DNA of 16,378 bases from Bacteroidota bacterium. Its GTDB lineage: Bacteria > Bacteroidota > Bacteroidia > Chitinophagales > Saprospiraceae. Below, one piece after another: positions 11,002-16,039 of the stretch (positions within the stretch are counted from its first letter, which is position 1; every line of letters starts with the position of its first letter). The DNA is taken from assembly GCA_024280135.1 (NCBI GenBank), contig JAJRQS010000205.1, forward strand, positions 1 to 16,378, in the 5' to 3' direction. The position numbers and the translations under genes were made by a program. The notes beneath the pieces were generated by a model. The model was not told where the DNA came from, did no database searches, and saw only the letters and a program-made list of their open reading frames with translations.

Positions 11002-11021
11002 AATAACTTAAAGTTAGAATT

Positions 11022-11055
11022 AAAAGCCCTTTCGGAAACGAGAGGGCTTTTTGTA
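11022..11055 (+). terminator. Strong rho-independent terminator of groESL
   Basis: A 13-bp stem (11022-11034 with 11039-11051, one T-G wobble) is closed by a GAAA tetraloop. Its outer AAAAGCCCT/AGGGCTTTT arms end in a T-rich tail. It lies 20 nt after the groEL stop. Confidence 0.95.
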
Positions 11056-11092
11056 TTTTCTGAGTTCAGAAACTTTGACCTTTTTTCAGGAG

Positions 11093-12941: not shown

Positions 12942-13688
12942 TCAATCTATAAATACTGAAAACACACCTACTCCATTGCCTTGCGCCAAAGCCTGTGCAT
13001 CAGGTTTACCCATGATACCAGGGCCCCAGACTTCAAAATCATAGTCGGTTGTTCCATTCAGCCATTGATCAATATCCATGATGATGCTTAAATCCACGGC
13101 AGATTCATCAATTTTCAAATCAATCGGTTGATTTACATCAAAAGAATAATCACCACCCTTAGAAGGACCTAAATGATATTTGAAGCTTTTGATGGTACCC
13201 GAATTATTGAGATTATAGTTGCCTTCAAATTTCATGTAGTGATAGGCACCTGGGCCCAACTGTTCTGGCCAAGCCATATTCGCATTGGCAACAGTATTCG
13301 GTAAGAAGTCCACAATATTGTCTGCTTTCTTAAAACCAAAGGTAAAAGTCATCGCTTTATATTGTCCTGCTGGTATTTTTGTCGCTGTAAAGCTTTTGCT
13401 ATCCTCTTTATGCAAGTCAAAAAGGTGGGCTTTGGACAATTCAACTACAGTCCCATCATCCTCCACTAAAGAAATCCGACTCAAATAATAAGTCAACGTC
13501 AGCAAGCTGTAATCATGTCCTACAACTGTAGTGTATTTTATTTCTCCTTCGACTGCTTCTTTATCCTTCACATAAGTTTTTAGTGATACCTTAACATCGG
13601 CAGGTTTTGGCTTTACCTCTTCTTTTCCACAACTTAGAGTAGATAACGTCAAAAGGCTAAATAATATCATGTATAGTTTGTAATCCAT
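12942..13688 (-). CDS. MbnP-like periplasmic copper-associated lipoprotein
   Basis: The 248-residue protein has a signal peptide ending STLSC (Cys20, probable lipid anchor) and a beta-sandwich-like body that matches the MbnP family in my reading: YYLSRISLVEDDG (67-79), IPAGQYKAMTF (105-115) and the NANMAWPEQ to HYMKFEG region (135-156). In characterised MbnP a Trp converted to kynurenine by MbnH takes part in copper binding. Here Trp140 of MAWP is the likeliest counterpart; that residue assignment is inference. Trp209 and Trp221 are others. The gene is first in a two-gene unit with the di-heme peroxidase and has a very good promoter. No methanobactin precursor or biosynthesis genes are visible, so the pair probably serves general copper handling. 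Confidence 0.75.
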   Translation of the reverse strand: MDYKLYMILFSLLTLSTLSCGKEEVKPKPADVKVSLKTYVKDKEAVEGEIKYTTVVGHDYSLLTLTYYLSRISLVEDDGTVVELSKAHLFDLHKEDSKSFTATKIPAGQYKAMTFTFGFKKADNIVDFLPNTVANANMAWPEQLGPGAYHYMKFEGNYNLNNSGTIKSFKYHLGPSKGGDYSFDVNQPIDLKIDESAVDLSIIMDIDQWLNGTTDYDFEVWGPGIMGKPDAQALAQGNGVGVFSVFID

Positions 13689-13714
13689 GCTCTAAAAGTT
13701 TTGGTTATAAAAAT

Positions 13715-13745
13715 CAAAGATAAGTTTAATAACTCCTTAAAACAA
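13715..13745 (-). promoter_or_regulatory. Housekeeping promoter of the MbnP/peroxidase unit
   Basis: On the minus strand TTG (13743-13745), 20 bases and TATCTTTG (13722-13715) match the Bacteroidota TTTG/TAnnTTTG promoter with ideal spacing. Transcription would begin about 20 nt before the start codon. A CAGTG/CACTG dyad at 13763-13779 lies just upstream and could be an operator, though that is weak. Confidence 0.75.
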
Positions 13746-13917
13746 TACTACCTGATTAAAGTCAGTGTAGAAATCACTGCATAAAACCTAAAGTATCAAA
13801 AAAACTTAATCTGTAATTCATTGATATTTACACCTTTACCCATTAAGTGAATCAAATTAAATCTAGAAAATGTAAGAATTACCTTATTTAGGGTATTTCC
13901 TTTTAGAAAGTTTGCCT

Positions 13918-13925
13918 TAACTTTG
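13918..13925 (+). promoter_or_regulatory. Bacteroidota -7 box of the small Cys-peptide unit
   Basis: TAACTTTG matches TAnnTTTG. Transcription is predicted near 13931, 30 nt before the small ORF. The -33 region has only TTT at 13896-13898, so the promoter may need an activator. A 5-bp palindrome GCATT-C-AATGC sits at the predicted start (13930-13940). Confidence 0.6.
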
Positions 13926-13961
13926 TCCTGCATTCAATGCAATACAACAAGTAATAATTTC

Positions 13962-14030
13962 ATGGACATTTTCTTTCAATACGAGCAAGCCCAATCATAC
14001 AGCTGCCGTCCTGGAAAATGTCCGGTTTAA
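13962..14030 (+). CDS. 22-residue Cys-containing small ORF, possible leader peptide
   Basis: ATG at 13962 opens a 22-codon frame that ends at TAA 14028-14030. The peptide begins MDIFF and ends SCRPGKCPV, with Cys15 and Cys20 five residues apart in a C-R-P-G-K-C motif. It sits about 31 nt after a predicted transcription start, behind an A/T-rich leader with no Shine-Dalgarno, like other genes here. It has no signal peptide and no relative I can name with certainty. The short length, the Cys codons near its end and the terminator 67 nt downstream recall amino-acid-sensing leader peptides, but no cysteine or sulfur gene follows within the window. It could also be a functional small thiol or metal-binding peptide. 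Coding is inferred from context; chance cannot be excluded for 22 codons. Confidence 0.5.
   Translation: MDIFFQYEQAQSYSCRPGKCPV
13964..14023 (+). promoter_or_regulatory. Long-range stem joining the start and end of the small ORF
   Basis: GGACATTTTC (13964-13973) is perfectly complementary to GAAAATGTCC (14014-14023), enclosing 40 nt. The 5' arm begins at the G of the ATG. The 3' arm covers the Gly-Lys-Cys codons and the first base of the following Pro codon. Pairing would hide the start codon region; ribosomes in the last codons would open it. A regulatory role is inference. Confidence 0.55.
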
Positions 14031-14096
14031 AAGTAATGATAGCCTTTTCGTGAACATTAAAGGTTTGTCATAAAGATGTAATCGGTTTTTGGGATG

Positions 14097-14127
14097 GCCT
14101 CTCTCTGTATGGAGAGGGGCTTTTTTT
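14097..14127 (+). terminator. Strong rho-independent terminator of the small-peptide unit
   Basis: GCCTCTCTC (14097-14105) pairs with GAGAGGGGC (14112-14120) with one T-G wobble around a 6-nt loop, followed by seven T. No annotated-size gene lies upstream on this strand, so it must end a short transcript. Confidence 0.92.
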
Positions 14128-14557: not shown

Positions 14558-16039
14558 ATGGGGAAATTTAAACTATTTTTACTCGGAGCTATTAGCTTCC
14601 TCCTTTCACAAACGGCCTTTTCGCAAGAGCAATTAGGTATTCGATTGGACAATTACACCGGAATGGATCAAGCTTGGCTGAATCCTGCATTTGTAGCAGC
14701 AAGCCCGCTTACATTCGACATCCACTTAGGCGGACTTGGCATGTTTGGTGAAAACAATTATGCTTTTATTCGCAATACGTCTATCTTAGACATGGCAAAA
14801 AATAGCGGAAAATTCATGTCCGCTTTTGACTTAGATGGTGCACCTGCGCCTAAGGGTTATTTGGTTGGAGATATTTATGACAATCCTAACAAAAAATTCT
14901 TAAAATTCACTACGACCTTTACGGGACCGTCTTTAATGTTTAAGATTGCCGAAAAGCACAGTGTCGGTGTTTTTACAAATATGCGTGCAGCATTTTCTGT
15001 AACAAAGATTCCCGAAGTGCTAGGCTTTTTGGAATATGACCGCAAAAAATATGGAGAATCTTTTGAGGTAAGTCCTTTTGAAGCAGCTGGTGCTATTTGG
15101 AATGAAACGGGTATCCACTATGGATTTGATATTGAGAAAAGTAATGGACACATTTCTTTTGGTGCACACTTAAAATACAACTCTTTCTTAGAAAGTGGAT
15201 TTATTGGTATTCAAGATAATTTAACCGTAACAAAAATCAGCAAGGATTCAACATTAATTAATAATCCTGCCGTTGAATTTGCTATCACCACGGGCAATTT
15301 GAATCGGGTAAGTTTTGATGCAAATAATAAGTCCGTTGATATCGGGAAACCTTCAATAGACTTTTATGGGCATGGTGTAAGTGCAGACCTCGGTGCATCT
15401 ATCCAGATTGAGGACAATGAAGTAGAAGGCTATCGTTGGAAAGCTGGTTTTTCTGTTTTAGATTTTGGAATGATTAACATTAAAAAGAAGGCTGAGTTTC
15501 ATACGTCTAGCCCGATACCAGCCGATTACATGTTTACTTTAGAAGATTTACAAGATGCTAAAAATCTAAAAGAAATCGAGCAAACGATTAGTCAGAATGC
15601 TTTGGGCAATCCAAATGCTTCATTGAAAGCTAAGACCTTTAAGATGGGATTACCATCAGCGATTAGCCTTCAAGGAGATTATCAGTTTATTCAAAACATC
15701 TATGTGGGAGGTGCGCTAGTCCAACCTTTTGGGCTGTCTCGTTATAACTTGACGCGTACCGCTATCTTAGCTGTATCGCCTAGATTTGAAAATAGATATT
15801 TCTCTTTATCGGCACCGATTGTCTTGAGAGATTGGAAGTCACCAAGAATGGGATTGGCGGGTCGTTTAGGATTTATATCCTTTGGAACCGACAATATTGG
15901 GAGCTTTATTCGTAAGAAAGATTTTACTGGAACGGACTTTTATTTCTCAGTTAGCTTAAATGCTGTTAACTTGCCGAAGTTTTTGTCCGGTGGCAGAAAA
16001 AGAAGTCGTCGCTCGACTCTTGGATGTTACGGTTTTTAA
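14558..16039 (+). CDS. DUF5723 family protein, predicted secreted/outer-membrane beta-barrel
   Basis: The 493-residue protein has a clear signal peptide (about 1-22, cleavage after AFS, mature start QEQLG). The early LDNYTGMDQAWLNPAFVAASP (31-51), the repeated amphipathic aromatic strands and the final DFYFSVSLNAVNLPKF fit DUF5723, a Bacteroidota family of outer-membrane-type proteins of unknown function, similar in style to PorV/PorP-like barrels. It has no OmpA-like domain and no linked gliding or type IX secretion gene, so a scaffold or porin role is only a guess. The tail is basic (GGRKRSRRS) and ends in an aromatic residue. The ATG at 14558 directly starts the signal peptide. The acetyltransferase gene follows after 30 nt and may be co-transcribed. 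Confidence 0.8.
   Translation: MGKFKLFLLGAISFLLSQTAFSQEQLGIRLDNYTGMDQAWLNPAFVAASPLTFDIHLGGLGMFGENNYAFIRNTSILDMAKNSGKFMSAFDLDGAPAPKGYLVGDIYDNPNKKFLKFTTTFTGPSLMFKIAEKHSVGVFTNMRAAFSVTKIPEVLGFLEYDRKKYGESFEVSPFEAAGAIWNETGIHYGFDIEKSNGHISFGAHLKYNSFLESGFIGIQDNLTVTKISKDSTLINNPAVEFAITTGNLNRVSFDANNKSVDIGKPSIDFYGHGVSADLGASIQIEDNEVEGYRWKAGFSVLDFGMINIKKKAEFHTSSPIPADYMFTLEDLQDAKNLKEIEQTISQNALGNPNASLKAKTFKMGLPSAISLQGDYQFIQNIYVGGALVQPFGLSRYNLTRTAILAVSPRFENRYFSLSAPIVLRDWKSPRMGLAGRLGFISFGTDNIGSFIRKKDFTGTDFYFSVSLNAVNLPKFLSGGRKRSRRSTLGCYGF

Follow-up and report, generated by a model that had tools for sequence, protein, structure and literature searches.

The window analysed here is the whole of a 16,378-nucleotide contig of a Bacteroidota bacterium of the Saprospiraceae (assembly GCA_024280135.1, contig JAJRQS010000205.1); within about 210 bp it contains a promoter box, a 22-codon ORF and a terminator that are attached to no larger gene, which raises the question of what such a small unit could be for. 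The initial annotation offered a functional thiol or metal-binding peptide, a dual-function RNA or an attenuator that had lost its operon. All three signals are present where it placed them (Table 1); the DUF5723 gene (PF18990) begins at 14558 on the same strand, about 430 bp past the unit as claimed, and the divergent side is occupied by genes for MbnP (PF20243) and a di-haem CCP/MauG protein (PF03150). The -7 box TAACTTTG, which by its consensus is presumably of the Bacteroidota type, would place the transcription start near 13930, and the promoter and 3′ end of the unit are both beyond chance, as they recur as conserved elements in relatives. The reading favoured here, with a probability of about 0.7, is that of an unannotated base-pairing sRNA of ~198 nt, which would be co-induced with its target, a type IX secretion system (T9SS) cohesin operon, and would probably repress it; among the earlier proposals, the functional RNA is the one with sequence evidence behind it.

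Table 1. Features of the mini-unit, in window coordinates.
Feature	Position	Strand	Remark
Operator-like palindrome TACC-N8-GGTA (TACCTTATTTAGGGTA)	13880-13895	+	22 nt before the -7 box
-7 box TAACTTTG	13918-13925	+	conserved in orthologs
Conserved 5′ element ACAACAAGTAATAATTTCATGGACA	13944-13968	+	identical in G117, one change in G436
22-codon ORF MDIFFQYEQAQSYSCRPGKCPV, ATG 13962 to stop 14030	13962-14030	+	sequence not conserved
Helix P1	arms 13964-13973 and 14013-14023	+	forms in all three orthologs
Anti-EL segment TGCCGTCCTGGAAAA, codons C-R-P-G-K	14004-14018	+	can pair with 14085-14098
Hairpin P2, UGAACA in loop	14035-14071	+	MFE or centroid folds of three orthologs
EL element ATCGGTTTTTGGGATGGCCTC, proposed base-pairing region	14081-14101	+	conserved in the family
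Intrinsic terminator, hairpin and T-tract	14096-14127	+	

By eye, an MbnP-like neighbour adjoins the unit in one relative (G117) and is absent from the 13.8-kb contig of another (G436), and is therefore probably irrelevant to the unit; the MbnP start region in the window (13674-13728, minus strand) is weakly complementary to the 3′ element (z -1.44, p 0.08). ARAGORN found no tRNA in the window. Elsewhere, a 23-nt tandem repeat at 143-666 (23 copies, 88% matches), which by eye adjoins an ABC-transporter-like ORF at 673-2409, would explain a repetitive ORF at 96-416, and a stretch at 11004-11088 of the minus strand, lying by eye directly after a GroEL-like ORF, has a sub-threshold Rfam match to BSnc120 (30.2 versus 114 bits).

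By BLASTN, the whole unit was found in three of the five genus genomes searched, namely the window's own, G436 (75%) and G117 (71%), and the remaining two match it only at the 3′ element. The orthologs agree mostly in the promoter, in ACAACAAGTAATAATTTCATG and around GTAATCGGTTTTTGGGATGGCCTCTCTC in the 3′ segment; their central part has diverged and varies in length, and the unit is conserved as a free-standing one in three species. This pattern is not that of a peptide gene. Chance can account for the length of the 22-codon ORF: an ORF of at least 22 codons is present in 30.6% of 2000 shuffled versions of the 198-nt transcript, and the intergenic region holds three, where shuffles have 4.6. 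A search for DNA that could encode CRPGKCP and continues with NTN-TA matched no other genome among the 297 searched in the order, the window's own being the sole match of 298; in a collection of genome contigs the pattern matched two stretches, one from Desulfobacula and one from a Clostridia MAG, and Pfam and NCBIfam searches with the 22-residue peptide gave no match. The genus orthologs of the ORF encode MDIFPYQGALFFIWTAIPEKCL and MNIFPFLGACSIFPFLSSHPGRMFYF, whose C-termini differ from that of the window peptide, and single-base length changes among them keep the RNA stem and shift the reading frame. The thiol or metal-binding peptide was rejected on these grounds (missing pattern, divergent C-termini, frame-shifting length changes), and the reading frame, whose conservation in relatives had been set as the check on that claim, is not kept.

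A functional peptide in a broader sense, including a translated leader peptide with a role of its own, has some points in its favour. Among 109 leaders of promoters with the unit's TACC-N8-GGTA palindrome (TACC-box promoters), 22 contain CATGRAC in their first 200 nt, versus 2.0 expected from shuffles, and in 13 leaders with this motif at +20 to +70 (precisely, at +29 to +67) it opens short, unrelated ORFs of 10-41 codons; these leaders are possibly a set of translated leader ORFs, and the 22-codon ORF may be one of them. Global alignment scores of the ortholog peptides were reached by 0, 0 and 25 of 300 shuffles in the three pairs, so that two pairs stand above all shuffles. The letters common to the peptides, however, fall where the RNA arms are conserved, and the CRPGK codons coincide with an RNA segment, 14004-14018, that is able to join two exclusive helices; with C-termini that differ, shifted frames and no family match, a functional peptide is highly improbable.

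The first of these helices, P1, is formed by the arms GGACAUUUUC and GGAAAAUGUCC; it has 12 column pairs, with all 34 lettered cells paired in the three sequences, one both-side change, in G436, and a matched length change (U4/A4 versus U5/A5), the window being one base shorter on each arm. Its covariation statistics, which draw on three sequences only, were reached by 162 of 500 shuffles. The second is made by the anti-EL segment, with counterparts AGCCATCCCGGAAAA or AGCCATCCCGGAAGA in the other two orthologs, which is strongly complementary to the 3′ end GTTTTTGGGATGGC (duplex z -3.7, -4.8 and -4.2 in the three orthologs); 12 column pairs are kept in all three, with no both-side change. The two helices are mutually exclusive, since the anti-EL segment overlaps the 3′ arm of P1. 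In the full-length RNA, forced folds favour P1 by 1.5 to 3.0 kcal/mol; when the RNA is cut before the terminator hairpin, the anti-EL helix dominates in G436 and G117, not in the window. The stem letters of hairpin P2 differ among the three orthologs, and the proposed seed is only partly unpaired in the predicted folds (mean 0.38-0.46). The anti-EL helix also engages the terminator stem at its first three bases, and an attenuator of transcription into DUF5723, the next gene, could exploit two such exclusive folds; the next gene in G117 and G436, however, is a different one and lies on the opposite strand, and hardly any credence can be given to this option.

No Rfam family reaches its gathering threshold on the window; weak matches over the 3′ half of the unit are to the PyrR site (31 versus 54 bits) and Spot 42 (23.6 versus 80). 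On 13 related loci the sole Rfam match at E ≤0.1 is a tmRNA, whose gene (L099, 2369-2746) lies near one free EL unit. Across 70 copies of EL, pairing with the sequence upstream has a mean z of -0.66, and most of the strong pairing is confined to the genus and a single class of free units. Besides the window unit and its orthologs, a class of free RNA units (L006, L056, L059, L061, L110 and L116) has a common segment ending GTGATTCACAAGARCCG before EL, in which CAAGAACCG pairs with EL CGGTTTTTG; several of these units lie downstream of PorP/SprF genes.

The 3′ element itself reaches far beyond the genus. With at most one mismatch, EL ATYGGTTTTTGGGATRGCCTC is present in 33 of the 37 genomes from the window's family versus 1 of 161 from the other families of the order; the reversed element matched none of the same genomes, and 44 of the 48 listed matches are exact where one mismatch was allowed. 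The view of EL as a mere terminator was not retained, since conservation is as high in the strand preceding the hairpin as at the hairpin foot. By eye, copies of EL either follow genes for large T9SS-sorted proteins or for PorP/SprF at a short distance or end free units. EL with up to four mismatches follows 14 of the 109 TACC-box promoter sites within 700 nt and with no intervening ORF of at least 80 residues. Among the fetched loci, the palindrome and -7 box lie within 500 nt of EL in 13 of 36 free copies and in none of 35 gene-end copies, a count that leaves out 38 EL copies with too little context (two of them with the box) and is biased upward for free copies, the box having served to fetch part of the loci; among free copies in loci L001-L092, fetched regardless of the box, 9 of 28 have it, three of these being the genus unit. 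Free units with a TACC-box promoter and EL exist in other genera as well.

The palindrome is kept in both genus orthologs, with varying outer letters. The pattern TACC-N8-GGTAT-N17..21-TANNTTTG was found in 86 of 150 family genomes versus 17 of 150 for the reversed control (hand count), and in the fetched loci the gap is 21 nt, the top of the range allowed, in 32 of 34 distinct sites; when the search admitted gaps of 19 to 22, those of the matches listed for the window's family (17 of 37 genomes) were 21 or 22. Since other families yield matches with gaps of 19 to 22 as well (43 of 161 genomes, against 13 of 161, by hand count, for the reversed control), the short pattern alone is no proof. 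In the five genus genomes it has nine matches, of which five precede the cohesin operon, three precede the unit and one (G436:C295) is unassigned; it marks the promoter of this operon in each of these five genomes, and in operon and unit the CATGRAC start follows at nearly equal distance from the promoter. The geometry of the palindrome is presumably that of sites for NarL/LuxR-type response regulators. Response-regulator-like genes were seen behind TACC-box promoters at L108 (Pfam match) and L139 (by eye).

The operon so marked is a long one for secreted surface proteins and consists of a cohesin gene with a T9SS tail, a ~1940-residue protein, PorP/SprF and a ~1933-residue dockerin protein, also with a T9SS tail, followed by EL and a large gene; it was seen almost whole in G436 and G437, and some of the tail-domain matches lie just under the Pfam cut-off (26.0 versus 27 bits). 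In the window's own genome, which is 80% complete, the operon promoter and the cohesin gene are on two contigs overlapping by 141 nt, the 3′ end of the operon was not found, and the EL of the unit is the only one, no second copy having been detected. Relatives of the cohesin protein occur at E 1e-8 in 151 of 199 family genomes, not all of them being the operon gene. EL lies 6-11 kb downstream of cohesin, on the same contig and strand, at 34 of 49 loci, taken as one per genome and in some cases because EL had already been seen on the contig.

Sites antisense to EL are found at the starts of the operon genes. In 5/5 genus genomes, TGACCAAAACCGAA is present in the leader immediately upstream of the cohesin start, and in the window's own genome CCAAAACCGA precedes the cohesin gene and CAUCCCAAA the second gene. 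Among the cohesin starts that were read, some show a site resembling CCAAAACCGA, AACCAATTGTT or AATCCCATG and others no recognisable site; for the second gene CATCCCAAATTCC is the typical site, around -20, and many PorP genes carry CCCAAAAC or AACCGATTT. Between -30 and +3, 8-mers antisense to the common EL occur at 7 of 47 cohesin, 15 of 24 second-gene and 14 of 27 PorP starts, some of the start codons having been chosen by rule and possibly being wrong. At -63 to -31 the corresponding numbers are 1, 2 and 0 (3 of 98 starts), at -96 to -64 they are zero for each of the three genes, and sense-orientation 8-mers of EL are absent from all 98 of the same starts. A slightly different gene collection gave antisense 8-mers at 5 of 24 cohesin, 11 of 18 second-gene, 16 of 30 PorP and 10 of 241 other starts, counts reached by 4, 7, 0 and 2 of 500 shuffled ELs, respectively; the pool of other starts exceeds most shuffled ELs partly because six of its ten matches are cohesin or second genes missed by the classifier. 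As for duplex energies, cohesin starts do not differ from other genes with the common EL (p 0.36), and cohesin sites differ from other genes with the variant EL described below (p 0.013). In the window's own genome the cohesin/EL duplex is not significant (z -0.01) and that of the second gene reaches weak significance (z -2.1, p 0.034); same-genome versus cross-genome energies, permuted over 25 genomes, are no more than suggestive (p 0.096).

Natural variation of EL adds a further line of evidence. Nineteen of the 34 cohesin operons with a downstream EL have a TTGG-type EL, and CCAATTG stands before the cohesin gene in 7 of 17 variant-EL operons versus 0 of 15 common-EL ones (Fisher p 0.006, a value that counts only operons with a start that was read and treats them as independent, the relatedness of species being left in); the entry of G404 among the fifteen is uninformative, since the start chosen there is internal. 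The EL AACAATTGG goes with the site CCAATTGTT in five operons (G134, G325, G338, G342 and G408), and the EL ATCAATTGG with the site CCAATTGAT in two operons of one genus (G238 and G434). The matching site is absent in 10 of the 17 variant-EL operons, and G294 has the CCAATTG site and no variant EL within two mismatches.

These data bear on an explanation in which EL would serve a specialised terminator by binding a protein or conferring stability, the unit would titrate that protein and the complementarity would reflect a common initiation motif. Such a role would suit an EL that, little changed, ends mRNAs as well as free units, and the strong conservation of the second-gene site itself lets seven of the 500 shuffled ELs match it equally often; however, the 8-mer matches are antisense only and concentrated at the start region, and the variants of EL and site go together in seven operons, which makes titration unlikely. 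The unit might also be a functionless remnant, left by a duplicated operon that lost everything between leader and terminator, given that it has the promoter type, the leader start and the 3′ element of the operon. The changes that keep the stem, the 5′ and 3′ segments conserved in three species despite a divergent centre, and the free units with this promoter type and EL in other genera argue against decay, and a remnant is very unlikely. The attenuator that lost its operon, proposed by the initial annotation, was right in part: the promoter type and 3′ end are those of a real operon and the RNA has two exclusive folds, but the unit is free-standing in three species.

In the sRNA reading, an activator acting at TACC-N8-GGTA would switch on the sRNA together with the T9SS cohesin operon, and the 3′ segment AUCGGUUUUUGGGAUGG, which adjoins the terminator, would base-pair with the ribosome-binding sites of the operon; the pairing of EL would block translation and provide a delayed negative feedback. 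Repression as the sign of the effect is suggested by the position of the sites, and the operon probably also feeds back on itself, since its own 3′ end carries EL in relatives. The segment 14004-14018 resembles the target and could pair with the seed or, partly, with the 5′ arm of P1, so that the seed would be masked or free, with the mini-ORF or a partner RNA possibly choosing between these states. The direct support for this reading consists of conservation, the common promoter and 3′ end, complementarity and matched variants, and the case for an sRNA rests on the exact matches, their position and strand, the sites at the second gene and PorP, the common promoter and the variants, all of them sequence features; transcription, pairing in vivo, repression, the identity of the activator and the gating are what we infer. 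As for trans-encoded sRNAs in general, the unit has its own promoter and intrinsic terminator, as sequence signals, and a conserved seed complementary to translation initiation regions.

A wider version of the sRNA reading, tentative and rather doubtful, would be a family-wide RNA regulon based on a seed that lies within a terminator, in which the early genes of the operon carry sites for its own 3′ end, free copies are co-activated and, in the genus, the seed is gated by a target mimic that translation of the mini-ORF melts; translation of the mini-ORF would then arm or disarm the sRNA. If the sRNA reading holds, this tiny locus yields predictions of an sRNA with its seed and targets, of its co-activation and of natural matched variants in one family, with a type IX secretion system and its PorP/SprF, cohesin and dockerin proteins as the predicted target, and a terminator could also act as an antisense seed and, when copied, give rise to new regulators. 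To our knowledge, such RNAs with known targets are still few, and a search of the literature for EL, including its sequence letters, and for its setting found nothing on the element.

In leaders of the transcription attenuator type, a short ORF overlaps one of two exclusive helices before a terminator. The unit resembles them in having a short ORF over one of two such helices and then a terminator; unlike them, it has no co-directional following gene in two of the three orthologs (G117 and G436), where the terminator accordingly does not precede a gene that it could regulate. A second likeness is with OppZ and CarZ of Vibrio cholerae, operon 3′ ends which pair with the mRNA of their own operon and inhibit its translation (PMC7398697). 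The predicted likeness lies in an sRNA sequence at an operon 3′ end, pairing with that operon and negative feedback. OppZ and CarZ are cut from the mRNA by RNase E in that account (PMC7398697), whereas the window unit has its own conserved promoter and is therefore no 3′ UTR fragment; location at the 3′ end of the paired operon applies to the EL copies of relatives, not to the window unit, and neither does release from an mRNA by an endonuclease. A further difference is that here sites at three operon genes match EL. GibS of Bacteroides thetaiotaomicron, from a genus without obvious Hfq or ProQ, pairs at start regions and is likewise a free-standing intergenic Bacteroidota sRNA with its own start and intrinsic terminator (PMC7366714). 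Its seed is single-stranded and in the 5′ part, whereas the one proposed here is 3′, against the terminator, and the GibS targets given there are unrelated to those predicted for the window unit (PMC7366714). By analogy, the window unit would work like both OppZ/CarZ and GibS.
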